Part shown: positions 6,281-46,603 of the stretch, piece by piece
Position numbering within the stretch: the stretch's first letter is position 1
Layout: the number at the start of each line of letters is the position of its first letter
Origin: Candidatus Hodarchaeota archaeon
Lineage (GTDB): Archaea; Asgardarchaeota; Heimdallarchaeia; Hodarchaeales; YT1-039
Length of the DNA stretch: 51,824 nt
NCBI GenBank assembly: GCA_016840025.1
Contig: JAEOTF010000286.1
Location: 1 to 51,824 of the forward strand
Direction: 5' to 3'
The notes under the pieces: model-generated
Database searches by the model: none
What the model was told of the DNA's origin: nothing
The model's input: the letters and a program-made list of their open reading frames with translations, nothing else
Made by a program: the position numbers and the translations under genes

Positions 6281-8152
6281 TTAGTTAGAAGCTAATGAAC
6301 AAGTAGAATGGAATCTAAGATTCCTTATCAAAACAGATGTTCGGGATTGGTCATTAGACTCAGATAAATCTTTGCTCCATCTTTTTAGAGTAGCTATAAT
6401 CTTTGGTTTATCAGTGGGGGTTATGTCAACTATCCCTTCACTTAAAAAATGTCTCAGAATGCAGAGTTTTAACCCTTGTTCAATCGGTTCAGTGCTGAGA
6501 GTTTCGATTAAACTGTCAGTTGGGATTGAACTGGCTTCTCCTAAAAGATTGTTTTTTTCTTGGGGGAATAACTCATCTTTCCAAAAAGTCCTCCATGCTA
6601 TTTCGACTTCTTCTTTTATCATTTTACAAGTGTCAGATTCTTTTTGATAAGAACATTGACCACAAACCGTATTTTCAATAGTTGGGATTGAATTATTATC
6701 ATCATAGCTCTCAATATTTTCTTTGTAGAGAATTTTCACTTTATTCTCAATTTCAGAGTAGTTTATGCCCTTAATGGAGTGAGGTAGACTAAAAAATCTT
6801 TGGGAAAGGCACCCATTAACGATACAACGAATCCCTGTTGGAGAAATTTTGGGGTTATCTCTTTGGATTGTCCTCAATAAATAATCAAATCCAAAACGAG
6901 CATTTCGTACCAATTCATCTTTTACTTTCACGTTAGAGAGATATGTAAACATATTCTTGAGATGCTCAGTACAAATCTGATCGTTTAGGGTAGATAAAAA
7001 ACTGGAAGCGTCACAAGATTTGCATAGAATACCCTGATTTTTGAAGTTAATTTTTAATCTTTTTAATTCATTTTTTTGGGATTTTTTTCCAAAATCCGAT
7101 AATTTATGGCTAGTAGAAGCATTAGATGGTCTTTTTTTGGGTTTTATAGGATTTTTTTGCTTATTATTATTCTGTGAACTGTTTTGGGATTTTAGATTCA
7201 TTATTAGTCTTTTTGGGTTTTCAGTAGCAACTTTTTCTTCTACGAGCCTTTTTCTATCTGAAGTTTTTACTTTTTCTGGGGATGAGATTTTTAAGGAACT
7301 TTGAGGAGTATAAAGATATTTATTTACTAATCTCTCAATTCTATGAATCCCTTCCTCTATTGAATGTACCCCTAGGCCATAAGGGGGAATTCGAAATCTC
7401 ATAGCGGTGATTTTTGTACTTTCTGGATTTTTAAATTCTAATGAATCTATAAATGAAAGAAATTTTGGAATTATAGAGATAGAAGATTCTTTAGAATCCT
7501 TTTTGATTCCCACTTGAGTTATACTTCCTCTAAATACCTCCTCTGTATGATCAGAGGATTGTTGCATGTTTTTCTTACTAAAAAAATACATAGACCTAAT
7601 ATCAAGTGTTGGGCTTAGTTCATCTAGATTATTCTCTTGTGATTGAGAAATAACACCAAAGATAGATCTTCCATCATCTAACAGTGTTAGCTTATTTTTT
7701 AGTGTTATTGAGGTTAATCCCTGATAATAATTCCTTAATTCTCTATCTTTCAGGATTTTAATATCACCAGAGAGTTTTTCAAACCAGAACGACGCCTTAG
7801 TAATTCTCTGCTTATATATTTCCTTATCTGTGAATATTGTTAAAAACAACTCAATCTCGGATTGATGCTTACGAATCTCAAGAGTACATGGAGATAACCG
7901 CCATATCTTGCTTAAAATCATCCTATCAAGAATCTGAGGCTTTGAATAGAACGTTACCGCAATCCATTCTCTACCATCATCTCTTTTAAAGATAACTTCT
8001 TTATCAGTAAAACGATCAAATTGAAGATAGGCACCTGTACTTGTAAATAGTCTTATAAAACTTTTAAAGGCTTTAATTAGACCATAGCTCAGTAATACCC
8101 CTAATATTACTGAAACAAGACGTAAATTGCTACTGTACAGTAACCAATCCAA
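6281..8152 (-). CDS. Membrane-anchored Cys-rich protein, partner candidate of the HerA-like ATPase
   Basis: A 623-residue protein I do not recognise. It has one N-terminal membrane segment (about residues 10-32, LRLVSVILGVLLSYGLIKAF) and then a mixed alpha/beta domain to about 270. A Lys/Asn/Ser-rich linker (about 295-370) contains repeated KRL-x-x-N-x-K motifs. The C-terminal domain has possible metal-binding cysteines: CKSCDASSF, VNGCLSQRF and CGQCSYQKESDTC. Start is TTG at 8152. The spacing and strand suggest an operon with the ATPase, as would be expected of a membrane anchor or assembly factor for a pump; that link is inference. Confidence 0.6.
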   Translation of the reverse strand: MDWLLYSSNLRLVSVILGVLLSYGLIKAFKSFIRLFTSTGAYLQFDRFTDKEVIFKRDDGREWIAVTFYSKPQILDRMILSKIWRLSPCTLEIRKHQSEIELFLTIFTDKEIYKQRITKASFWFEKLSGDIKILKDRELRNYYQGLTSITLKNKLTLLDDGRSIFGVISQSQENNLDELSPTLDIRSMYFFSKKNMQQSSDHTEEVFRGSITQVGIKKDSKESSISIIPKFLSFIDSLEFKNPESTKITAMRFRIPPYGLGVHSIEEGIHRIERLVNKYLYTPQSSLKISSPEKVKTSDRKRLVEEKVATENPKRLIMNLKSQNSSQNNNKQKNPIKPKKRPSNASTSHKLSDFGKKSQKNELKRLKINFKNQGILCKSCDASSFLSTLNDQICTEHLKNMFTYLSNVKVKDELVRNARFGFDYLLRTIQRDNPKISPTGIRCIVNGCLSQRFFSLPHSIKGINYSEIENKVKILYKENIESYDDNNSIPTIENTVCGQCSYQKESDTCKMIKEEVEIAWRTFWKDELFPQEKNNLLGEASSIPTDSLIETLSTEPIEQGLKLCILRHFLSEGIVDITPTDKPKIIATLKRWSKDLSESNDQSRTSVLIRNLRFHSTCSLASN

Positions 8153-12278: not shown

Positions 12279-15200
12279 CTAATCTAGTCTTATGGTCTCT
12301 TTTTTCCTCCAAAAGGATAAAATTGAAAAAAGTCCTTTTGTACCCAAGGTTACTAGTGCACTTAAGAAGACTACATCCTGCAAATTCATATTAAACCCGT
12401 TTTGTGGCTTTAAAATGAGATAATCGTCGTTTTGAGGAAGAAATATCTGATTTCCAGCCTTATCACGAACTTGTAGCCTTATCTTTGATTCTTCATAGAG
12501 TTTAATCTCAATTATCCATTCTTGACTCGAATCATTTGAAGGAGATAAGACCTCTGTTCGATTTTCGTTATCATTCAAGATTAATAGTAAAACTTGGTCT
12601 ATCCCTGACTCGAATGTATGTTCTTCCCAACAATTTGCAGAAAAAAGAAAAGTGTTATCTTCCATTGACTTTATATTCAATACCGCCTTTGGGTTGATTG
12701 AATCAGTTACATTTAGAAAAAAATAGGAACTATGATAGAACCATCCATTGACATCCCAAACTAGAATTCTATACTTAGCACTGGTATTATAGGGAAAAGG
12801 GCCAAAACTCGCGGTAAGTAGGTATTTGTGTTCTGTAAGATTTGTAGTTAAAAGAGAAATGTTCTGAATACCCTGGTTTAGCATATTGAACTCAATTAAA
12901 CCAAATGGAACGCTTACCAATGATGTAACGTTTATCTGGATATGCAAACTTTCATTACAATCAATAGTTTCGGGTAAAGAATCCAATTCTACCTCGATGG
13001 GAACAGGAACACCTGTGAGGACAAGAGATTTGGTGCTATTCGCGTTAATCGTGCCAATATGAATCGATAGCAAAGAAGATGTCTTTTTAGTAATATTAAT
13101 ATCTTGTGTTATGTTCCTTCCGAGAATATCAAAGGCAAACCAGTCCGTAACTGTTTTTTCCAAGACTGTCAAAGGAATTTCTATTCTTACAGAGTAGAAT
13201 TTCAATCTTGAAGTTATATTTAGATCGATTTTGGGCCAAGTTGTGCCATTATATTCCCCATGTTTGATTAAAACCGTTGGCCCTCCCACTTGAAACACTA
13301 ATTCATCCAATTCAGAACTAAAATTATTAGGAAGTTCCCAAAATAACTTATCCTGTTCTAATCTAACATTAATAGTTTCAGATTCATGTAATAATTGAAC
13401 TGATTTTATCTCATTAGATGGAAAAGGTGAAAAAATATACCAATAACGTCCTTCAAATGGATAACTAACATTGGTGTGGACTATCACTGTTTCATTACAT
13501 AATACAGTTTGAGGCTGGATAATTTCATCTATAGTTGCCTCGTTATATTGGATTAGTTCAGATAGAAGAATATAGGAAGTATTCTCCCAAAGAATTTGAA
13601 CTCCCCATATTATCTGTATCCTATATTCAAAGGTATTAAGTATAAAATTTGGGGGAAGAGAAAAGTGAATAATTGACTGACCAAAGTCATCAGTAAAACC
13701 TGCGCTAATTAGAGTATCATTATGGCTTACTTTGATAGAAAGGCTGGGTATAGGGGTGTATTCTGAATTTGTTACATTTAGATGTAACTCATAATATTCA
13801 TCTCCAAGAGAATTGGTTTTTTGCTTCACTAGGATTGGAGATTGTTTAACAGTTATTTCTACTTCCTTATTAGGGACTATATAACCACCTATTACAGCAG
13901 AAATTACAAGGTTTTTGTTTCCAGGGCTTGAAATAATTGGACCGATTAAGATATCAAAATTCTTATCAAATTGGAAACTTTGAGACCATGATTCAAACAA
14001 TATTGTAATGTTTCCATTTTCAATGCTTGTGTTTGTATGATGATCTAATATTGTACCGTTTATGCGAATCTTTTCATATTGAAAGGCTTCAATCCAATCA
14101 GAAGTAATTATTTCACCTACATCAGTAGGAATAAATAATTCAATAATTCCAATACCAGCTTCTGAAGTAGATATCCAATAAACTTCAATAGATACATTAC
14201 CTTTTGGAGCTTCAAGAGGGATTTTTAAGTTAGAAAAGAGGGCTATACCAGAAACAAAACAGATTGTTTCAGTCTGAAGTAAAACAGTGTTTTGTGGATT
14301 TTTCAGCAACAATAAAATTGGACCTTGAACAACATATTTCATACTAACTGTAATATTGACATAGTCGCCTTGCAGCGGATAACTAGCATCGCATTGAATC
14401 TCTTCTATATAATTCGGCGTTATAGCTGTTAAAAGATAGCCAGTTACATTCTCATTAACAATATCAGCAATATAACATGATTCTGTGACCTTTTCTAGAA
14501 AGATAACACCTTCATTGTATAATGTTAACTGATCCCAGTCTGTAGGTACATTCAAAATAAGTTTTTTGATTGAAGATGAAGTTTCGAAAGTGAAAAAAGA
14601 GATATTAGCGTATAGGTACCCTGGTTCAGATATAGAAAAGTTACTTTCGAAAGATAATGAAGTAGAAATGAAAATTTCTAGATCTATTATTCCTTGAACA
14701 GTATTATTGCCTTGATTCACAATAAATTGGAGAAGAGTAGTTCCCCAGTTCACAGTATTGAAGTTCAGAATAATAGGAAATGTACTACCAGTGAATAGGC
14801 TAGGAGGTTCATTGTCTAAATATAGCTCTAATCCCACATCCTCTGGTTGTACCGACATATTACATTTAAATTCATCAATAAAAAACAAACTTGAGAAAGG
14901 CGAAGGAAAGGACCCACAAGCAATCTCTATCTGATATAACCTACTAACACTAGTATTGCAGTAAGTTTCTATAAGACTAACTAGGTCTACCACCGAAAGA
15001 TTATGCCATACACCATCCCATGTCGAATTTATAAAATAATAAAGATAATTAGAATCCACTCTAATATCCTCTCTATCCGTAGGAGTACCAATTGGGAAAG
15101 GAGATTGCCGCCAAAGGAAGAATGTTACAGAAGCAGTATCAAAAATCAGAGAAAGTGTGATTTGAGAACTGGTTCCATTACTATCAAGACCTGTTTGATT

Positions 15201-15800
15201 AAGAAGAAGAAAACTAAAAGAAGCATTAGCATAGGCAGATATAGTTTGATTCAGATTTGAAATTTTCCATTTAGCCCATAATTGGGGATAATCGGTTATA
15301 TTGAACATCCAAGCCCCTTCCCCTTTTGAAAAATTCTCTGTTGATCGATTGCAGTATGCATATTCTTCTACGCCTTCCAACTCCCAGGGGTTGGATAAAG
15401 ATTCGGCATTTCCATTAGGAATGGTTTCATTCCAAAGAGAAGAAAGCTTTACAGTACCATTGATCGAATTTGTAGCATTTTGTTTACCGAGTACTATGGT
15501 TTCATTAATTCCCAAAGTTCTATTGATTGATTCTTTTTGATAAATTGTGAGTTCTTCATCGAATAAATTTATTCTTTCCGCGCTCACGACTTTCTTATCG
15601 TTTTTATCTTGGTATTTAGTATTAAAATTCACATTATGTTTGTTTAGCGGTTCAGATTTTATCACAGAATTATTATTTTCATTTTCTTGTGAGATAGATC
15701 GTTTATTTCCATAAGATTCAATAAATTGAAGGTTGTACGGTAATATAAGTAATAAAATTAAGAGAGAAAGGACACTATGGATCCTCAATTTGAACACCAA
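12279..15800 (-). CDS. Large secreted, C-terminally anchored Ig-like/S-layer-type protein
   Basis: A 1173-residue extracellular protein. An N-terminal signal-like segment (residues 6-24, LRIHSVLSLLILLLILPYN) is followed by Asn/Ser/Thr-rich beta-strand sequence with dozens of N-x-S/T sequons, then a C-terminal hydrophobic helix (about 1140-1160) and the basic tail WRKKETIRLD. Repeated phrases such as PLQGDYVNITVSMKY, and the CNET and CNES motifs before VHTNVS and IHINVTS-like strands, suggest tandem Ig/Big-type beta-sandwiches. No catalytic motif was seen. It is plausibly a cell-surface or S-layer-associated glycoprotein. The start is TTG at 15800. Lineage-specific; family not recognised. Confidence 0.7.
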   Translation of the reverse strand: MVFKLRIHSVLSLLILLLILPYNLQFIESYGNKRSISQENENNNSVIKSEPLNKHNVNFNTKYQDKNDKKVVSAERINLFDEELTIYQKESINRTLGINETIVLGKQNATNSINGTVKLSSLWNETIPNGNAESLSNPWELEGVEEYAYCNRSTENFSKGEGAWMFNITDYPQLWAKWKISNLNQTISAYANASFSFLLLNQTGLDSNGTSSQITLSLIFDTASVTFFLWRQSPFPIGTPTDREDIRVDSNYLYYFINSTWDGVWHNLSVVDLVSLIETYCNTSVSRLYQIEIACGSFPSPFSSLFFIDEFKCNMSVQPEDVGLELYLDNEPPSLFTGSTFPIILNFNTVNWGTTLLQFIVNQGNNTVQGIIDLEIFISTSLSFESNFSISEPGYLYANISFFTFETSSSIKKLILNVPTDWDQLTLYNEGVIFLEKVTESCYIADIVNENVTGYLLTAITPNYIEEIQCDASYPLQGDYVNITVSMKYVVQGPILLLLKNPQNTVLLQTETICFVSGIALFSNLKIPLEAPKGNVSIEVYWISTSEAGIGIIELFIPTDVGEIITSDWIEAFQYEKIRINGTILDHHTNTSIENGNITILFESWSQSFQFDKNFDILIGPIISSPGNKNLVISAVIGGYIVPNKEVEITVKQSPILVKQKTNSLGDEYYELHLNVTNSEYTPIPSLSIKVSHNDTLISAGFTDDFGQSIIHFSLPPNFILNTFEYRIQIIWGVQILWENTSYILLSELIQYNEATIDEIIQPQTVLCNETVIVHTNVSYPFEGRYWYIFSPFPSNEIKSVQLLHESETINVRLEQDKLFWELPNNFSSELDELVFQVGGPTVLIKHGEYNGTTWPKIDLNITSRLKFYSVRIEIPLTVLEKTVTDWFAFDILGRNITQDINITKKTSSLLSIHIGTINANSTKSLVLTGVPVPIEVELDSLPETIDCNESLHIQINVTSLVSVPFGLIEFNMLNQGIQNISLLTTNLTEHKYLLTASFGPFPYNTSAKYRILVWDVNGWFYHSSYFFLNVTDSINPKAVLNIKSMEDNTFLFSANCWEEHTFESGIDQVLLLILNDNENRTEVLSPSNDSSQEWIIEIKLYEESKIRLQVRDKAGNQIFLPQNDDYLILKPQNGFNMNLQDVVFLSALVTLGTKGLFSILSFWRKKETIRLD

Positions 15801-24987: not shown

Positions 24988-26112
24988 CTATTCAGGCTGA
25001 AGACCAGCTACTTTTTGAACTATTCCTCCAATTGAAATGTTAACAGCAAAATACCACCAAACGAAATGCAGGGATGTATATGTTGGAGCAGTTGGCAATG
25101 TTTTGTAGTCTTCACCAAAGAATGTTTTTGGAAGAAGGGGTAGCCTAAGTTTATAAGGAATTACTGCAGGTCGATTGTCTCTATGAGCTCGAAGTTCGAT
25201 GGAATCTATCTTTATGAGTGAATCGTTTTGAGGTGTTGTGAAATCTTGACTTGTATCCTCTATTCTTAGCACTAAGCTTCTTAGGGGATTGTCTGGCGTA
25301 TTTAATTGATACATGACTTTCCCTGGTCTATCTGAGATTAACCCTTGAATGAAAGTCTGATTATAATATTGAGTATGGTTTGTTACAATTAATGTTCCAT
25401 TTTCAATCTGCGCTATTTCAGTCCAATCATCTTCTGTCGGTTTTTCTATGTTTATACTATAGCTGACAGTGAAATTCTCATTTCCCTGGGTTTCATTTAT
25501 CTGAAGTTGGATCTTAAACTCAGGATAATCTATCAGATCCTTAAAAAGGACTTGAATGTTTAAACTATCATTTACTTCCCTAATATCAAGAGTTTTGACT
25601 TCTTTCTCTCTCTTACCATGACTTTTTATATAAGGAGAGTAGTGTGTATCTTCATACTTTCCATTAATCGCTCCATCTACGACTGAAGTGTTTTCCGCAC
25701 TCATATAATATTTCTCTGTGTGCCCATTGGAGTTATAAAAACTACTCAATGAAAAGAAGATAAGCATAAGTGGTATCATGTAGATGAGCATTGGTCTCAT
25801 TCGCATGTTACTTAGTTCACTGTTTATCCGCTTCATCCGTCTGGATTTTCTATCAAGTTCGAGTTTTAACTTTCTATCGGCAGTTTGCTGGACTTTCCGC
25901 TGAAGTTTGCGATATGCTTTCTGTTCACGAGTGTACTTTTTCAACTTCTCTATATCTATCAATTGCCGAGAAATAAGTGCAATGGTGATTGATAGGCACA
26001 TCCCCACCAGCATTATAAAAAGGCTTGAAAAAGGTGGATCTGGGGGAGCATAATTTCTAACAAGATCTGGTAAAAAATCGCCGATGTCTTCTAGGATTCC
26101 TGCAAATGCCAA
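24988..26112 (-). CDS. EMC3/YidC-like membrane insertase (DUF106) with large extracytoplasmic insert
   Basis: Archaeal member of the Oxa1/YidC/EMC3 superfamily, which inserts membrane proteins. The first membrane helix is around residues 29-48 (SLFIMLVGMCLSITIALIS). A cytosolic coiled coil (EKLKKYTREQKAYRKLQRKVQ to RRMKRINSELSNMRMRP) and helix MLIYMIPLMLIFFSLSSFY are the DUF106 core. The last helix is SLHFVWWYFAVNISIGGIVQKV. The protein is 374 residues, nearly twice the usual length, because about 190 residues of beta-rich, N-glycosylation-sequon-bearing sequence lie between the second and last helices. It is co-directional with eL34, as is usual. Confidence 0.88.
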   Translation of the reverse strand: MAFAGILEDIGDFLPDLVRNYAPPDPPFSSLFIMLVGMCLSITIALISRQLIDIEKLKKYTREQKAYRKLQRKVQQTADRKLKLELDRKSRRMKRINSELSNMRMRPMLIYMIPLMLIFFSLSSFYNSNGHTEKYYMSAENTSVVDGAINGKYEDTHYSPYIKSHGKREKEVKTLDIREVNDSLNIQVLFKDLIDYPEFKIQLQINETQGNENFTVSYSINIEKPTEDDWTEIAQIENGTLIVTNHTQYYNQTFIQGLISDRPGKVMYQLNTPDNPLRSLVLRIEDTSQDFTTPQNDSLIKIDSIELRAHRDNRPAVIPYKLRLPLLPKTFFGEDYKTLPTAPTYTSLHFVWWYFAVNISIGGIVQKVAGLQPE

Positions 26113-27360: not shown

Positions 27361-27433
27361 AAACGGATTCCAGATAGAAGCTTGAGGAGAGATCACTCAC
27401 TCCATCATTTGGGTTTCTACAAAGAAGAATTGG

Positions 27434-27535
27434 TGGGCCGGCCCAGATTTGAACTGGGGATTTCCTCCGTGTCAGGGAGGCTTCATGCTCAAAACGCTCA
27501 GCCTTTGAGTGTCATAGCCGCTAGACCACCGGCCC
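27434..27535 (-). tRNA. tRNA-Val(GAC) with intron at non-canonical position 25/26
   Basis: The acceptor GGGCCGG pairs with CCGGCCC, plus A, and TGG on the plus strand encodes CCA. The anticodon arm CCTCC-CTGACAC-GGAGG gives anticodon GAC (27471-27473). T-arm: CCCAG-TTCAAAT-CTGGG. Between the D-arm (GTCTAGCGGCTATGAC) and the base before CCTCC there are 29 extra nt containing CTCAAA...TTTGAG, which form the central helix of a bulge-helix-bulge. Removal gives 73 nt. No insert is present at the canonical 37/38 site. Confidence 0.92.
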
Positions 27536-27664
27536 TATGATGCTTCACTTTTGAGTCTTTTTAGTTTGGTTTTAATTTTTGTTATATATTTTTTCTATGA
27601 CTAACATAAGCAGTAGCCAAATAACCTATTCTTTAGATAAATACCTTTATACTTCTTTGAGACG

Positions 27665-27673
27665 TTTAAATAA
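27665..27673 (+). promoter_or_regulatory. TATA box for orphan RNA A
   Basis: TTTAAATAA centred at about 27669 lies about 24 bases before the first structured nucleotide at 27692. That is the expected archaeal TATA-to-start distance, so the RNA seems to be transcribed on its own. Confidence 0.55.
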
Positions 27674-27691
27674 TAACGGATGAATAAAGAT

Positions 27692-28041
27692 GTCAACGAC
27701 CCACCGACACATGTGATCGGTGGGCTTGGGTGGTACCCTCCCCCAAGCCCAGTTGATTAGCCTCAGTCACCGTCTGCGACCCTATGGCTCTCAGATGACG
27801 GGACTCCGTTACCTTAGAATGGATAGGCACTTTAGGATGCTCCACAAGTCTTGAACTCTGCGGTCAGTGGTTAAACAGTTCTGCAGGGATAGGAACAGTG
27901 CTGCTGACGAGTAAAGGAAACCTAGGGTAACATTGGCGATGTGGACCACTCCCATTAGGGAGGCAGGCTCCTTATTAGCCTGCAGCCTTATCCTTTCGGA
28001 TAAGAGGGCAATTCATCCCACGGATCGCTTGCGTCCGTGGG
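27692..28041 (+). ncRNA. Orphan structured RNA A, about 350 nt, class unknown
   Basis: A GC-rich island in AT-rich DNA with no reading frame and many perfect helices. TCAAC/GTTGA closes two hairpins, CCCACCGA/TCGGTGGG and CTTGGG/CCCAAG. AGTC-CCGTC/GACGG-GACT follows. TCCACA/TGTGGA (27841-27846 with 27940-27945) encloses GTCAG/CTGAC. Then come four hairpins in a row: CTCCC-ATTA-GGGAG, GCAGGCT/AGCCTGC, CTTATCC-TTTC-GGATAAG, and CCCACGGA/TCCGTGGG (28017-28041), which is followed by TTTTCTT. I could not match the RNase P core or the SRP helix 8 motif on either strand. A stand-alone IscB omega-RNA is possible but unproven. Confidence 0.6.
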
Positions 28042-28050
28042 TTTTCTTGC
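28017..28050 (+). terminator. Hairpin plus T-rich tail at the end of RNA A
   Basis: An 8-bp stem CCCACGGA/TCCGTGGG with a 9-nt loop is directly followed by TTTTCTTG. It would serve as a 3' end or terminator for RNA A, or be the last domain of the RNA. Confidence 0.45.
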
Positions 28051-28172
28051 CTAATTTCTATAAAAAGAAGATTATATGAAAAGATTTGAAGCTATTTTTA
28101 AGGAGTCTTGACTAAGCGATACTTGAACGAGATCAATTGACTATTTTAATTATCGCTACGCGGCCTCGTTCT

Positions 28173-29192
28173 TCAGATGCTGTTTGGGGGTCGAAATGAA
28201 TCCCACCAGCCTTTTCTTGGCAGTTCAACTAACTTTCTTTCCTGTTCAAGATAAACCCCAGTTTTTCCTTCTGTGATGTAGCCGATACTCTCAATTTTAG
28301 AATCTGAAGCTCCTAATTTTTGTTTTAGAGGTCGAAATGACTTTGGAGGCACACAAAACACTAATTCATACTCTTCGCCACCATAAAAAACGACATCTAT
28401 AGGATCCAGATTATTATCTTTAATAAAACGCAAAACTGATTCTTCTATTGGTAACCTAGTTATTATGATTCTTTTTTGAGATTGAGTTGCTAACTCCCAA
28501 AGTGATCGGGCTAAGCCATCAGAACTGTCAATAGATGCTGTTACATTACCTGATTCACTTAATAGTCGCCCTTCTATGACTTTCGCTCTTGGTTCCATCA
28601 TTTTTTTCAACCATTTATGGGGCAGTTCATGAAGAGGCTTTTTTTGATGAAGATAATCAATAACCACTCCCGTTGATCCAAATTTACCTGTTACGCATAC
28701 CAAATCTCCCTCTCTTGATCCATCTCTTCTTAAGATTTGCCCAGTGGATAGATCACCTATCACAAAACCTGCAATAACCCCCTCAATCGCAGTTCCTAAG
28801 TCTCCCCCTAAATATTTCATTCCATAACCATGAGCAGCCTCTTTCATCCCATTTACAATATCTAACAGAACACTCACTTTCTCAGTAAAAGGAAGGTTAA
28901 TTGAGGACATGAATATTTTGGGAATAGCCCCTTTAGCTGCGAGGTCAGAGACTGTAATAGAAACAACTTTCTTCCCAATTTGAAATGGTGCCATATTGGG
29001 TAAAACATCGCTTTTCCAAGAGATTGCATCGGTATTCGCCACTAAAACCGAACCATGCCACTCTTGTGCAACAGCGTCTTCGTTTCCCCCTAGAATACTG
29101 CTTTTGTCAATAAAATTTTCTAAAAATTCGACTATACGCCCTTCTCCAACCTCTTTTAGCTGATAAGATTTCCATTTATCATTCGATTCCAT
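28173..29192 (-). CDS. thiL: Thiamine-monophosphate kinase ThiL
   Basis: Last step of thiamine diphosphate synthesis: ATP-dependent phosphorylation of thiamine monophosphate. 339 residues with PurM-like fold. Motifs: GGNEDAVAQEW and VANTDAISWKSDVLP near the N-terminus, VVSITVSDLAAKGAIPKIF, YLGGDLGTA, LVCVTGKFGSTGVVIDYL, and ITASIDSSDGLARSLWEL-like (VTASIDSSDGLARSL). The C-terminal GGEEYELVFCVPP is typical of ThiL. It is a single gene, divergent from the presenilin homologue with 87 bases between. Confidence 0.93.
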   Translation of the reverse strand: MESNDKWKSYQLKEVGEGRIVEFLENFIDKSSILGGNEDAVAQEWHGSVLVANTDAISWKSDVLPNMAPFQIGKKVVSITVSDLAAKGAIPKIFMSSINLPFTEKVSVLLDIVNGMKEAAHGYGMKYLGGDLGTAIEGVIAGFVIGDLSTGQILRRDGSREGDLVCVTGKFGSTGVVIDYLHQKKPLHELPHKWLKKMMEPRAKVIEGRLLSESGNVTASIDSSDGLARSLWELATQSQKRIIITRLPIEESVLRFIKDNNLDPIDVVFYGGEEYELVFCVPPKSFRPLKQKLGASDSKIESIGYITEGKTGVYLEQERKLVELPRKGWWDSFRPPNSI

Positions 29193-29279: not shown

Positions 29280-30290
29280 TTGAAGCTATCTATGACAAGA
29301 GAAGCACAAAAACCATCTTTTTTACCATCTTCACGGTTTTTTCGGTTTATTTTGCCAGTATTAGCAATAATTCTGCTCTCATGGATTTTCGCTCATTATA
29401 CATTGGAAATTTATTATCCTAGTGAGGCTCCTGTATCAATTACTCCTGTTAAAAGTGAAAAATCATCTCAAGAAGAAGAAATTGGACTCCTTAACGGGCT
29501 CATTTACATGTTCTTAGCTTTAGGTGGTGGATTTTTAGTATTATTCCTTCTTCGGCGAGGATTGCAAGATATTTTAAGAATTCTATTCCTTTCTGTGATA
29601 GCAATGGCAAGTTTCGTTATGGGGCTTTGGTACTTCTCTCCTTTTGTGTATATGACTTTTTATTCCATTCTCCCTTCTACTAGATTCCTTGAGGAATTTA
29701 TTAGTTATTGGTATAGTATGGTCCTTTCTTTACTCTATAGTATTTTTGCTGTTTATGTAATGAATAAAACTGGAAAGAAGATTCAATTCTTGAGAAATAT
29801 TTACCTTATTCTATTTGGAGCTCAGCTAGGCGCATTCATGGGGATTCATTTTAAACTCTGGGACACAGTTTTCGCGCTTATTCTTCTTTCGCTGTACGAC
29901 ATTTATGCTGTCTTCAAGGGACCCATTCGAGGGATACTTGAGGAAGATGAAGGTGGCTTTTTGGCAGATAGATTCGAATCTGATGAAGAAAGTCTGATTT
30001 CTCCAGATGAAAATGAAAAAAAAGTTGAGAGCTCAGTACAGCTCTTTCCTATCTTACCTATTTATGTTTCGGGAGAAATAATTATTGGATTGGGCGACTT
30101 TGTATTTTATGCGCTGCTTATTGGTTTTGCAAGTAAATTAGGAACTACTGTTTTCTTTGCTGGAATCGCAGTACTCTTAGGTGCTATAATCACTTATAAA
30201 TTACTTGAAAAACGGAGTGCCCTGCCAGGGCTTCCCATATCAATGTTTATGGGTGTTTCTGTCCTTCTTATAGATACCTTTGTGTTATAA
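29280..30290 (+). CDS. Presenilin/SPP-type intramembrane aspartyl protease
   Basis: An archaeal presenilin homologue (family A22) that cleaves membrane helices. 336 residues with about nine hydrophobic segments. Both catalytic motifs are present: SLYDIYAVFKGP with Asp207, and GLGDFVFYALL with Asp273. The PAL-equivalent loop ALPGLP is at 314-319. The cytosolic loop between the catalytic helices is acidic (ILEEDEGGFLADRFESDEE, 219-237). The start is TTG at 29280 or ATG at 29292. Confidence 0.92.
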   Translation: MKLSMTREAQKPSFLPSSRFFRFILPVLAIILLSWIFAHYTLEIYYPSEAPVSITPVKSEKSSQEEEIGLLNGLIYMFLALGGGFLVLFLLRRGLQDILRILFLSVIAMASFVMGLWYFSPFVYMTFYSILPSTRFLEEFISYWYSMVLSLLYSIFAVYVMNKTGKKIQFLRNIYLILFGAQLGAFMGIHFKLWDTVFALILLSLYDIYAVFKGPIRGILEEDEGGFLADRFESDEESLISPDENEKKVESSVQLFPILPIYVSGEIIIGLGDFVFYALLIGFASKLGTTVFFAGIAVLLGAIITYKLLEKRSALPGLPISMFMGVSVLLIDTFVL

Positions 30291-34259: not shown

Positions 34260-35765
34260 ATGAAAAGGGTATTTCAAAGAGCTTTACAAGAAAAATACGC
34301 GGGAATTAGGAACAATAATGACAATTTTGAGAAGTTCTGTCAAGTCATTAAACAAAAGGATAGGCAATTGCTAAATAAAGAGATGTGGTTGAATAGTATT
34401 CCTTGGACACTCGCATTTATGATTCTTACATTCCCTATACTCGAAAATTTGGCTCTTACTGTTATTTTTGGAGGGTTTACTTTCATAGGATTCAAGATAT
34501 TATATGATAAACTCCTCGAAAAGGAATTTGAAAGTTGTGGGCGGAGTATGACTGCCAAATCAATCATTGCAGCCAATGAATTTATACTTGTACTCGATTC
34601 CACACATTCTTTGCAAGATGCTTGTGAATTGATAGCTTCTGGAAAGTATGGGATAATCACAGCAGTATTTCAAGATGCTATACGGGACGCAAATTATGGA
34701 AGCCTCCTTCAACATGCAATAATTAAAAATTTGAAAAAATCCACTTTTGGTAAAGCTGAAGAATTACTTCTAAAAATCGTTCAAACTTGGAGTGAATCAC
34801 CAGAATCCATAAGTATTATGGCAGATCATGTTATTTCTCTTGCTGAATCACAGCTTGTAGAGCAAAATGAAAAAATTAACACAATGGCATCTATTCAGGG
34901 AATCGGAGCAGCTTTTCCTCCTGTCTTAACGGCACTTCTCCTTATCTCAGGCCTTTTCTCTATTTACTCATCAATAATAATGTGTATACTCTTATACATC
35001 CTTCTAAGATTCAATTCAGCTAGTCAAATTTATGATGAAGACTGGGAACAATCCTCCAGATCATTTGGGCAATGGGGACGATCCACAATCATATCTACTT
35101 TTGCAGAACAGCTTAGAAACCATAACAATTATTTTACAGCGCTTTTTGGAGTTTTAAATCGGTTCGTCAATAAAAACCAAGCTGAAACTAGAGCAACGAT
35201 CAATTCAATAGCATATGGGATACCAAAACCGCTAAATGGCATTATAGACGAACAGTATAGTAAAGATATGGATGATAGAACAATAGAATACCTTCGTATG
35301 GCAAAGAGATTCTCTGAAATTGATCCTAAAAAGGCTGCCACCCATCTAATGAGATTTTCTAATAAGCTTCAAAAAATAGAGGCAATTATTGCTCAAAAAA
35401 ATGCAAAAATAAGGGCAGAAAGAGCAAGATTACAAGTACTTCAGACATTTAGCACTATTTCTTTAAGTTTAATAGCTGCCATCTCTCCAGTACTCATTAT
35501 TGTTGCAATGGTTACTTCCCACCCCTTAGGAAGTATTCCTGCGCAAACTTTCACATTACAGCAGCATTTGTTTGTACTTCTTCAAATATTTCTAATTCAT
35601 ATACTTTCAGTAAGATCGACTGTTGAATTTTTTCCTAAATCTCAAAATGAGAAGGAGAAAATTATCAAAATGGTAAGATATATTGTACTATTTTTCCTTT
35701 CTTTAATAATTGGAGAGATTCTTTTTTATAAAACACTTGGACGAATAAGCCTTACATTCAGTTAG
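34260..35765 (+). CDS. TadC/ArlJ-like type IV pilus membrane core protein (probable)
   Basis: 501 residues with a tandem layout like archaeal TadC/ArlJ (T2SF domain) proteins. A membrane pair lies at about 47-83 (WTLAFMILTFPILENLALTVIFGGFTFIGF) and a soluble helical domain follows (NEFILVLDSTHSLQDACELIAS). Two close helices (about 212-250), a second helical domain and a final membrane group (about 400-495) complete it. These proteins anchor pilus or archaellum assembly ATPases. No pilin, ATPase or prepilin peptidase is adjacent, so it is an orphan here. The fold call rests on topology; motif support is weak. Confidence 0.5.
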   Translation: MKRVFQRALQEKYAGIRNNNDNFEKFCQVIKQKDRQLLNKEMWLNSIPWTLAFMILTFPILENLALTVIFGGFTFIGFKILYDKLLEKEFESCGRSMTAKSIIAANEFILVLDSTHSLQDACELIASGKYGIITAVFQDAIRDANYGSLLQHAIIKNLKKSTFGKAEELLLKIVQTWSESPESISIMADHVISLAESQLVEQNEKINTMASIQGIGAAFPPVLTALLLISGLFSIYSSIIMCILLYILLRFNSASQIYDEDWEQSSRSFGQWGRSTIISTFAEQLRNHNNYFTALFGVLNRFVNKNQAETRATINSIAYGIPKPLNGIIDEQYSKDMDDRTIEYLRMAKRFSEIDPKKAATHLMRFSNKLQKIEAIIAQKNAKIRAERARLQVLQTFSTISLSLIAAISPVLIIVAMVTSHPLGSIPAQTFTLQQHLFVLLQIFLIHILSVRSTVEFFPKSQNEKEKIIKMVRYIVLFFLSLIIGEILFYKTLGRISLTFS

Positions 35766-43807: not shown

Positions 43808-45049
43808 CTACAAATTAAAGAATATTGCTAATTCCGAATAGATTTCTCGAGGAAGAGGAAGACAAAGAAATGCAAGTAAAAAGGATAGAACTCCAATAAC
43901 CTTACGGGTTGCTGTAATACTGGTAACATCGTCTAGTGGGCCAGGATGACCCACAAGAAGATAAAAGAAAAGAATAATCAGAGCCATTAGATAAAACTGT
44001 AGGAAAATCATTAGAATCGCTGTTGCAAACGTGACATATTTGTGTTTCTCATCATCCAGCATCGACCTAGCTACATGACCGCCATCAAGTTGACCAAGAG
44101 GAAGAAGATTAAGTCCTGAGATCAAAAAGCCGACCCATCCTGCAAAAGCTATTGGATGAATTACGGTCACATATCCTGCAGGACAATTAACAACCAAGCG
44201 TTCAAGTAAATTAAATAGGATAACCTCGAATGGTAAGGGGCCTAGGTTTTCTACAGAACCTATAGGTACTGTTTTAGATATACTTAGTCCAAAAGCTGTT
44301 ACAAGGAAAGTCACAGCAAGACCAGTATAGGGACCGGAAATTCCAAGGTCAAAGAGAGCATTACGATCTCGAAGAGGACTTCGTTGATTAATAAAAGCCC
44401 CCATAGTCCCATAACCTACAGGTAAAGGAATAAAATAAGGTAAACTTGAATCCACACCATGTTTTCGAGCAGCAAGTTTATGACCAGTTTCATGTACGAG
44501 TATAATGCCCAGAAGAGCAATTGTATAACCAATAGCACTGAAAAGTGGGTCTGTGAATATTTTGGAGATGTAAAAAAAATCAATGTTCCCTATAAATGGA
44601 TGGTCTACGTTCCTTGTGACGCTTATTGACAGATTCTCATTGGCTTCACCCATTAGCCACCCCACAAAGAGAACGGAGATGAGAGTCGCTAAAAAGAGAA
44701 AAAGCGCCTTATTTCGCTCATTCGACGCGGGTTTAGTTTTAAATGGAAAAATAAGCAAAAGTAGTCTCGATTTTTCAATATTGGGATCCGCACGGAGAAA
44801 TGGAACAAAACCTAAAGGAGATATTTCTTTCATAAGGATCTTCATTCGGATACTAGCATCTGTTCTTCTAAGAACTTCAAAGGCAGGGACATATTGAGGA
44901 ATTTGATCTTTTCCTGCTTTGGTCCGAATTTTACGAAAAGAATAGCTCGCAACCGTAAAATTCGCATAAATCAGCTCTCGAATTCGCTGTTCCTTATCAG
45001 TATCGTATATTTCAGAGTTAGAGTAAAAGCCGTAACCCACAATTCTCAC
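43808..45049 (-). CDS. Site-2-protease-like membrane metalloprotease (M50)
   Basis: 413 residues. A soluble N-terminal domain of about 110 residues is followed by several membrane helices. The zinc motif HETGH is at 186-190 inside GIILVHETGHKLAARKHGV, and the third ligand region is NLLPLGQLDGGHVARSM with Asp322. An FIPLPVGYGTMGAFI helix between them is typical of archaeal/plant EGY-type S2P proteins. It cleaves substrates within the membrane, often in signalling. The IscB remnant lies just upstream, divergent. Confidence 0.9.
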   Translation of the reverse strand: MRIVGYGFYSNSEIYDTDKEQRIRELIYANFTVASYSFRKIRTKAGKDQIPQYVPAFEVLRRTDASIRMKILMKEISPLGFVPFLRADPNIEKSRLLLLIFPFKTKPASNERNKALFLFLATLISVLFVGWLMGEANENLSISVTRNVDHPFIGNIDFFYISKIFTDPLFSAIGYTIALLGIILVHETGHKLAARKHGVDSSLPYFIPLPVGYGTMGAFINQRSPLRDRNALFDLGISGPYTGLAVTFLVTAFGLSISKTVPIGSVENLGPLPFEVILFNLLERLVVNCPAGYVTVIHPIAFAGWVGFLISGLNLLPLGQLDGGHVARSMLDDEKHKYVTFATAILMIFLQFYLMALIILFFYLLVGHPGPLDDVTSITATRKVIGVLSFLLAFLCLPLPREIYSELAIFFNL

Positions 45050-45152
45050 AGCTGGAGGTCTTATTTGAGCGAGTCTTCTTTGTTTTTAATCTTAATCCAT
45101 ATAGTGTGCATATGCCTTCTTAAGCATTTCATTTTGGAAGGTGTTCTAGAAG

Positions 45153-45623
45153 ATGAAACGCAAGAACTTGAAATTGTCGAAATCTCATACCAACGATGCC
45201 TTTGTCATTGTAAATGGCACAACTCAAAAACGGACCATGCCTGTAGCCTTCGAGCAGATCAGACGTAATAATCGGTCTTTGCAGAAGTTCTACGATGCGA
45301 AATACCTAGACACCCGTACAGGCAAGAAAGCGAGTGGACAGGAGCTGTATAGTGGCAGACGCACTCGCAACAAGAATCTGAACGACGAGAATTTATGGAA
45401 CTATAGAGGGCATAAGACCAACAAAGGACGGGTCAGTATCCGTAGACAACGCTACAAATATCAACCTAAAGATATTGTGCAATTTCAAGGCAAGATATAT
45501 CTGGTCAAGGGAATGCAGAATTTAGGACACTATGTCAAACTTGCGGGGCTTCCCAAACCTGTTAAAGTCGAATTAGTGACCCCTGTTCGGTGGCGGAAAG
45601 GAATTTGCCGCGTGATTGAATAA
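45153..45623 (+). pseudogene. C-terminal remnant of an IscB-type RNA-guided nuclease
   Basis: 156 residues matching only the end of IscB (the IS200/IS605-linked ancestor of Cas9). It opens with LKLSKSHTNDAFVIVNG; SHTNDA (His12, Asp15) is the RuvC-III motif that follows the HNH domain in intact proteins. Next come RRNNRSLQKFYDAKYLDTRT, SGQELYSGRRTRNKNL, and the target-adjacent-motif interaction domain with IRRQRYKYQPKDIVQFQGKIYLVKG. The bridge helix, RuvC-I/II and HNH (some 250-300 residues) are missing; an in-frame TAG sits two codons before the ATG. Codons are richer in CGC, AAG, CTG and GAC than in neighbours, suggesting transfer. Confidence 0.75.
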
Positions 45624-45706
45624 TGGACTATCAATGGAAGAACAGGAACAGAAATAAAAACTGTTCCTAAACAGATAATTCCCTTGTAGATAAGTACTTT
45701 TTTTGA

Positions 45707-46603
45707 TCATCTAGATTGTTTTTTCTTCATCTTTTGGATTTGACGATTAGTTTCTGTCAATTTTTGGTTTTCCTCTCTCAATCTTTTGATTTCTTCTCTA
45801 AGCTTCTCCCGATCCATGTCTTGAATTTTTGTGATATCTACAGCAAGAGATAAGGTGTTTTGTACATTATCAAACAGCACGTCAAAACGCGACTCTTTTA
45901 ATTCAATATCTTTAGCACGCTCAAGATAAGCTTCCAGCAGAAGATGAACGTTTTTTGAATGGAGAAAAGGATAAGTCTTAGAAAATAGCAAAAAAACGAA
46001 TCCAGGACGACCATATTCCCTAATTCTAGAATCTTTAGATTCGGGGGCAGGAAGATGAAAAGAAAAAACCAATGTCTGAAGATCAGTCCGACTTGGTACG
46101 GGAATGGGGCCATGAAGGCCTTCTGTTAATATCGTACCCATCCCCACAATTGTCGCTCCCTGGATTGAGAGGCTCAAAAGCTCAGTTTCCGATAATGATG
46201 ACTGATTTTCTACTACCATCGGTCCAAGATCATCATCATGGATTGCTACGACCATACCTACGATATCCACTCGTGAAACAGAAATCTCTTTGAGAGTAGT
46301 AAAGTGAGATCTCAAAGAATCTTCATCAGTCTCTGGTGTAGCCATGACAATAAATGTCTCTCCTTCGGAGACCATCCAGCCACCGATTCTTGATGGCTCT
46401 CCATAAAACTTTCTAACTTCCTCTGTTGATAAAAGAGTCATTTTGTTCTCATTTTCAACATTAACGTTGCGTCCCTTAAGAAAGATATACAAAAGTAACT
46501 CACTTTGCTTGGTTCTGTCGATTCTTGGATCAAGCGGAGTCTGATCCCAAGAATAGTATACAAGCCCCTTCTTGTTCAGGATCCATTTTGCTAATATCAT
46601 CAA
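45707..46603 (-). CDS. Uncharacterised protein with C-terminal coiled coil
   Basis: 298 residues, not recognised. It starts ILAKWILNKKGLVYYSW, like the first strand of a longin or roadblock-type domain. An alpha/beta middle region has IGGWMVSEGETFIVMATPETDEDSL and VGMVVAIHDDDLGPMVVENQ. The last 40 residues form a strongly charged coiled coil (REKLREEIKRLREENQKLTE) ending in KMKKKQSR. No membrane helix. It lies 15 bases downstream of pssA on the same strand, so it is probably the last gene of the psd-pssA unit. A link to membrane or vesicle function is only suggestive. Confidence 0.55.
   Translation of the reverse strand: MMILAKWILNKKGLVYYSWDQTPLDPRIDRTKQSELLLYIFLKGRNVNVENENKMTLLSTEEVRKFYGEPSRIGGWMVSEGETFIVMATPETDEDSLRSHFTTLKEISVSRVDIVGMVVAIHDDDLGPMVVENQSSLSETELLSLSIQGATIVGMGTILTEGLHGPIPVPSRTDLQTLVFSFHLPAPESKDSRIREYGRPGFVFLLFSKTYPFLHSKNVHLLLEAYLERAKDIELKESRFDVLFDNVQNTLSLAVDITKIQDMDREKLREEIKRLREENQKLTETNRQIQKMKKKQSR

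Follow-up and report, generated by a model that had tools for sequence, protein, structure and literature searches.

The left end of a HEARO element is also the start of its conserved RNA, the guide is supplied by the flanking DNA, and insertion at ATGA or GTGA is preferred. Palindrome-associated transposable elements (PATEs) and other non-autonomous derivatives of IS200/IS605 consist of element ends only, and their mobility would need TnpA in trans. IS200/IS605 is taken here as the name of the element type under study, following published statements on IscB. The guide of IscB is a 5' extension of its omega-RNA, with an effective or preferred length given as about 14–17 nt for OgeuIscB and OrufIscB, and a guide of 24 nt is given for the HEARO nuclease MG35-1. 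The preferred TAM of OrufIscB is stated to be ATAAA (PMC13180657). Stand-alone omega-RNAs are described in PMC9581776 as able to function with IscB, and a 2026 survey of archaeal genomes lists IscB-HEARO as one of the OMEGA systems it detected (PMC12988326).

In the current study, the window (the whole stretch of DNA that was analysed, 51,824 nucleotides) was searched against Rfam, and HEARO was the only match above threshold in the 51.8 kb. RF02033, the family of the IscB omega-RNA, matched the structured RNA with 118 bits, the cut-off being 83 (E = 7.8e-24 over the full window, and 1.1e-25 when only 27500–28200 was scanned). The features of the locus, together with a protein-coding remnant discussed below, are the following.

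27665–27672, + strand: TTTAAATA, a TATA-like box of the host flank, agreeing at 8/8 positions with the archaeal TATA consensus and centred some 24 nt upstream of the first base of the RNA
27676–27691, + strand: putative 16-nt guide formed by the host flank, predicted from the anatomy of IscB omega-RNAs and needing transcription from far enough upstream
27692–27951, + strand: HEARO/omega-RNA core, starting with GTCAAC, the left end of the element (RF02033, model positions 1–211 complete)
27949–27962, + strand: short hairpin CTCCC-ATTA-GGGAG after the core, read from the letters and absent from a fold given only 27952 onwards
27963–27983, + strand: omega-RNA 3' hairpin GCAGGCT-loop-AGCCTGC, with the same stem in loci L001, L042 and L045
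27987–28004, + strand: hairpin CTTATCC-TTTC-GGATAAG adjoining the right end, read from the letters, its inner five pairs also in the computed fold
28007–28059, + strand: right end of IS200/IS605 type, consisting of GGCA ATTCATC, a hairpin at 28017–28041, and TTTTCTTGCC to ...TTTCT
28060–28065, + strand: predicted TAM of the empty site, ATAAAA, from right-end flanks compared by eye and the published IscB TAM
45153–45623, + strand: C-terminal remnant of IscB, 156 aa, corresponding to about residues 295–449 of the 449-aa Asgard IscB P0125 (68% identical)

The window RNA has the whole consensus, the GTCAAC start and the helices in common with RF02033, and differs in that no IscB frame lies downstream. 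It is 260 nt long compared with 211 for the consensus, the extra bases being inserted in several loops, and all 35 consensus pairs can be formed by its own sequence. A preliminary description of this DNA had treated the RNA as an orphan. The HEARO family covers its entire 5' 260 nt, and so strong a covariance-model match to a known family refutes the orphan status as well as a new class.

Covariation was assessed in 16 aligned sequences, i.e. the window RNA and 15 chosen HEAROs, whose predicted consensus fold has 35 pairs. All 16 begin with GTCA at the 5' end. Compensatory changes were found, with changes on both sides in 24 of the 35 pairs and 94.1% of cells paired, and on each of five measures all 500 shuffles stayed below the real alignment. 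In a control in which the partners were slid by 1–3 columns, pairing was 33–42% and 10–17 pairs had changes on both sides. The structure came from the same 16-sequence alignment, which is a bias in its favour; the margin is wide. These results make it close to certain that the window RNA is a HEARO (omega) guide RNA of an IscB nuclease.

The earlier picture of a structured, GC-rich RNA in AT-rich DNA holds. The fold of 27692–28045 had an energy of -143.7 kcal/mol, the shuffle mean being -116.3 (n = 100, z = -5.3, 0/100 as low), and the GC content was 52.7% in 27692–28059 compared with 36.1% in the window. The strong fold and the GC contrast would also suit a divergent housekeeping RNA (RNase P or SRP) or a new class of RNA, both of which had been proposed, but these explanations are ruled out for practical purposes by the full-length HEARO match together with the covariation. 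RNase P and SRP, whose core and helix 8 motif, respectively, had not been found on the earlier inspection either, gave no match above the Rfam gathering score anywhere in the 51.8 kb and none up to E = 1 in 27500–28200. Besides HEARO, the permissive scan of 27500–28200 to E = 1 returned only anti-hemB at 27961–28048, which was below threshold (18.1 bits, 49.5 needed) and was dismissed as a chance match.

The four hairpins previously noted at the 3' end (27949–27962, 27963–27983, 27987–28004 and 28017–28041) were all confirmed by letters; the minimum-energy fold is without some of their outer pairs. In L001, L042 and L045, GGCAGGCT-loop-AGCCTGCA lies between the core and the start codon of IscB. 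The window has this stem (GGCAGGCT..AGCCTGC) at 27963–27983, but no IscB after it. The sequence context of the window's right end was found directly 3' of the IscB stop codon in six of 11 loci (L001, L002, L003, L005, L010 and L011; the version in L005 is AGAGGGGCAATTCATC...GTCTTCTTGCC), and ATTC.TC is present in 10/10 chosen right-end sequences in the alignment. In L007 the ORF runs into a similar hairpin at its end, and L004 (the same place as L019), L006, L008 and L009 have another type of end or none in the stretch inspected.

A looser right-end finder was run on 32 rows, comprising the window and 31 loci, among which three pairs (L002/L028, L004/L019 and L009/L022) stand for one place each. 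A right end of the window type was detected in 14 rows (13 distinct places), and the other 18 had none or unrelated hairpins, the downstream sequence being short for some rows. The rows without this end include complete IscB loci with ample sequence (L004/L019, L006 and L009/L022), which counts against the element reading given below. In a stricter scan of the window, the motif occurred on the + strand at 28011 only, where 0.17 were expected (100 block shuffles), and there was a weaker 7-bp match of this kind on the - strand at 2618. The right end begins 59 nt past the HEARO core. With regard to membership in the IS200/IS605-type elements, a sub-terminal right-end hairpin in the sequence context of the family is present. 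The T-rich end described earlier exists, in that TTTTCTTG comes after the last 3' hairpin (28017–28041), but it is part of the right end of the transposon and does not have to act as a terminator.

At 13–19 nt past the stem, the right ends in the 13 places lead into ATGA, ATGG, ATAA or GTGA (read by eye). The junction in the window reads ...TTTCT/ATAAAA, and accordingly the element would span 27692–28059. The ORF list (at least 90 aa) has no frame that overlaps the feature, as had been stated, and none between 27360 and 28173, so iscB is absent from the element. There is a strong case from the sequence that the feature would be a non-autonomous IS200/IS605-type element of about 368 bp (27692–28059) without iscB. 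To judge from the omega-RNA fold, the common right end and the absent iscB, which are read from the DNA itself, the locus is very probably a HEARO RNA gene residing in such an element. The proposal that this is a stand-alone omega-RNA is thus borne out by a full-length RF02033 match with no iscB following it.

Three bacterial genomes and a single viral record gave 26, 7, 5 and 3 HEARO matches (41 in all), compared with 0/14 control genomes. The matches examined were 36 of the 41, each of the five left out being below the family cut-off. HEAROs were also contained in the viral contigs L032–L034. A HEARO lies upstream of the IscB match in all 11 IscB-related loci (L001–L011), with scores of 100.7–132.5 bits in ten of them and 88.7 in one. 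Downstream sequence of 1,200 nt or more was available for 30 of the 36, and seven of these had no IscB by tblastn (L017, L021, L027, L031, L037, L038 and L043; L031 scores below the family cut-off). Downstream iscB or isrB is absent at the window HEARO, and since these seven testable loci are also without it, the gene is not essential for the family.

Four of the seven (L017, L038 and L043 in genome G001, and L021 in G002) have the layout of the window, with a right end at most 150 nt from the core and no IscB in 1,256–1,500 nt downstream. The spacer between core and right end is 80–131 nt in these bacterial copies and 59 nt in the window. In another stand-alone bacterial copy, L027:1840-2040, the right-end hairpin seems by eye to be interrupted by an insert of very roughly 130 bp. 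Two loci of an Ardenticatenales bacterium MAG, L001 and L003, have the motif TTGGCGA.GTGGACCAC in common with the window; L001 also has the 3' hairpin stem of the window, and the right end after IscB is of the same type in both. Unlike the window, they retain iscB between the omega-RNA and the right end. A similarity search with the element gave no match in phages and a single match in plasmids, from Priestia megaterium (34% of the query, 71.5% identity). The window element differs from PATEs and other non-autonomous IS200/IS605 derivatives by its additional guide-RNA gene.

The 156-residue IscB fragment reported about 17 kb away is indeed a C-terminal piece of IscB. A scan of genome contigs gave eight loci, all bacterial. 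The piece is 61% identical to the IscB of L001, 58% to that of L003, 78% to P0002, and 80–81% to P0047 and P0101, two pieces on one contig of Promethearchaeota. The piece retains the segment SHTNDAF, assigned to RuvC-III, and the C-terminal region; all that lies upstream is missing, which by alignment means RuvC-I, the bridge helix, RuvC-II and HNH. For P0001, the best match among solved structures had E = 0.26, with none in Pfam at E 0.001 and none in NCBIfam at E 1. No HEARO was detected in 44000–46000 around the piece and no right-end motif near it on the + strand. A perfect 7-bp hairpin, GGAACAG-AAATAAAAA-CTGTTCC, lies soon past the stop of the remnant (45645–45667, + strand) and is not of the right-end type. 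It was also considered whether the RNA and the piece are halves of one split element, and this was rejected, since the RNA comes with a right end of its own and none was found on the + strand near the piece. Because that right end lies 59 nt past the core, the piece does not appear to be the displaced partner of the RNA; the two look like separate remnants.

The conserved RNA starts at the left end of the element, and the host flank 27676–27691 is therefore the putative guide. In the predicted empty site, position 27691 of the flank would directly adjoin 28060. A search of the window for guide plus TAM returned the element's own junction (one mismatch) and one site with three mismatches, a yield matched by 10 of 100 shuffles. 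Exact empty-site patterns for the related elements L010 and L011 had no matches in viral contigs.

The preliminary description had placed a TATA box about 24 bases upstream, which is the TTTAAATA box, and had argued that a start at the first stem leaves no room for a guide and speaks against an omega-RNA. This argument hangs on one TATA box, and a structured part that starts at 27692 is what a HEARO should have, since its RNA begins at the left end and the guide is the flank. With the usual spacing from box to start, transcription directed by the TTTAAATA box would begin at about 27692–27695 and yield no guide. Boxes that agree less well with the consensus lie at 27632 (7/8), 27636 (6/8) and 27646 (6/8), with predicted guides of 30–33, 26–29 and 16–19 nt, respectively, under the same spacing. 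Matches of at least 7/8 occur at 0.26 per 100 nt on the + strand of the window and the flank is AT-rich, and starts directed by the lesser upstream boxes would be compatible with a 5' guide; for these reasons the TTTAAATA box is weak evidence on the transcript start. If it were nevertheless used, its 8/8 agreement and its position would suggest a regulatory RNA without a guide, started exactly at the left end, whose scaffold might bind IscB without a target and act as a decoy or repressor. The box sits outside the element, in AT-rich host flank, and such a guide-less RNA is considered quite improbable.

For the HEARO gene in a non-autonomous element, the following course of events may be envisaged. 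The element would have been inserted by a transposase of the TnpA type acting in trans. If a host promoter farther upstream than 27676 drives transcription, the flank 27676–27691 would become the guide. An IscB from another locus of the cell could take up this RNA and cut the empty site (the flank followed by ATAAAA), and cutting of the empty copy would aid the element in being copied back.

Two readings within this explanation, action in trans with an IscB encoded elsewhere and a dead relic, are about equally likely. In the relic, an IscB element would have been shortened by deletion to a remnant that still folds owing to its recent origin, yields no guide-bearing transcript and serves no nuclease; it would remain a HEARO element, though a functionless one. 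The missing iscB, the C-terminal piece as the only IscB in the window, and the best TATA box yielding no guide are in line with this, and the chance that it is correct is just short of even. The core itself is not visibly decayed, since it is complete, forms 35/35 consensus pairs and scores 118 bits, within the range of IscB-adjacent cores, which argues against a relic. Alternatively, an intact IscB elsewhere in the genome may use the RNA as a trans-acting guide, with the small element persisting or spreading. The function of stand-alone omega-RNAs with IscB stated in PMC9581776 and the guides of 16–33 nt permitted by the weaker TATA-like boxes are consistent with such a role. It would also fit that full-length IscB occurs in Asgard MAGs among the matches listed: among 120 relatives of the L001 IscB (the best 120 of 5,727), 14 carry names of Asgard MAGs and are 61–67% identical, one of the 14 being partial. 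The names of these at least 14 are Odinarchaeota, Heimdallarchaeota, Hodarchaeota or Hodarchaeales, Thorarchaeota and Promethearchaeota MAGs. The trans-acting role is tentatively given a somewhat less than even chance. The 30 ORFs of the window that were scanned with Pfam (out of 63 of at least 90 aa) included neither an intact IscB nor a transposase, which speaks against the explanation as a whole. A further step would be a nuclease-free omega-RNA mini-element that is kept as a gene for a trans guide (or guide-less decoy) serving an IscB elsewhere, giving a dispersed, CRISPR-like set of one protein and many guide genes; this is unlikely.

Taking the locus as a HEARO gene in an iscB-less element, an apparent orphan RNA is settled as a member of a known guide-RNA family, and its 3' hairpins are explained by the omega-RNA 3' hairpin and the transposon right end. 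The analysis contributes a stand-alone omega-RNA element from an Asgard archaeon, for which the guide (27676–27691) and the TAM (ATAAAA) are predicted. The gain is modest, as archaeal IscB-HEARO (stated in PMC12988326) and stand-alone omega-RNAs (stated in PMC9581776) are already in print; such copies being known, the window element is an ordinary find.

The window contains archaeal genes of the eIF-6, S3Ae, L1, L11 and L10 families, TruB with DKCLD, TruD, ATP synthase subunits and an SRP54-type GTPase. Among the best eight matches for TruD, which include the query, one protein from a Promethearchaeota (Asgard) MAG is 66% identical and the other six are 37–40% identical. Judged from TruD and from the Asgard MAGs named among the listed IscB relatives, the host is an Asgard archaeon.

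Three long ORFs on this stretch, 12279–15800 (- strand, 1173 aa), 6281–8152 (- strand, 623 aa) and 34260–35765 (+ strand, 501 aa), had no Pfam match at E 0.001 and no NCBIfam match over the cut-off. Other genes of the window include one for an EMC3/TMCO1-like membrane protein (24988–26112, - strand, PF01956) and one for a membrane protease of the presenilin family (29280–30290, + strand, Pfam PF01080, E 1.5e-21). A gene for tRNA-Val(GAC) was found at 27431–27535 on the - strand, with a non-canonical intron of 29 nt (27482–27510) between the D arm and the anticodon arm. ARAGORN misses this gene with default settings, reports tRNA-Gln with its intron option, and identifies tRNA-Val when the intron is removed.
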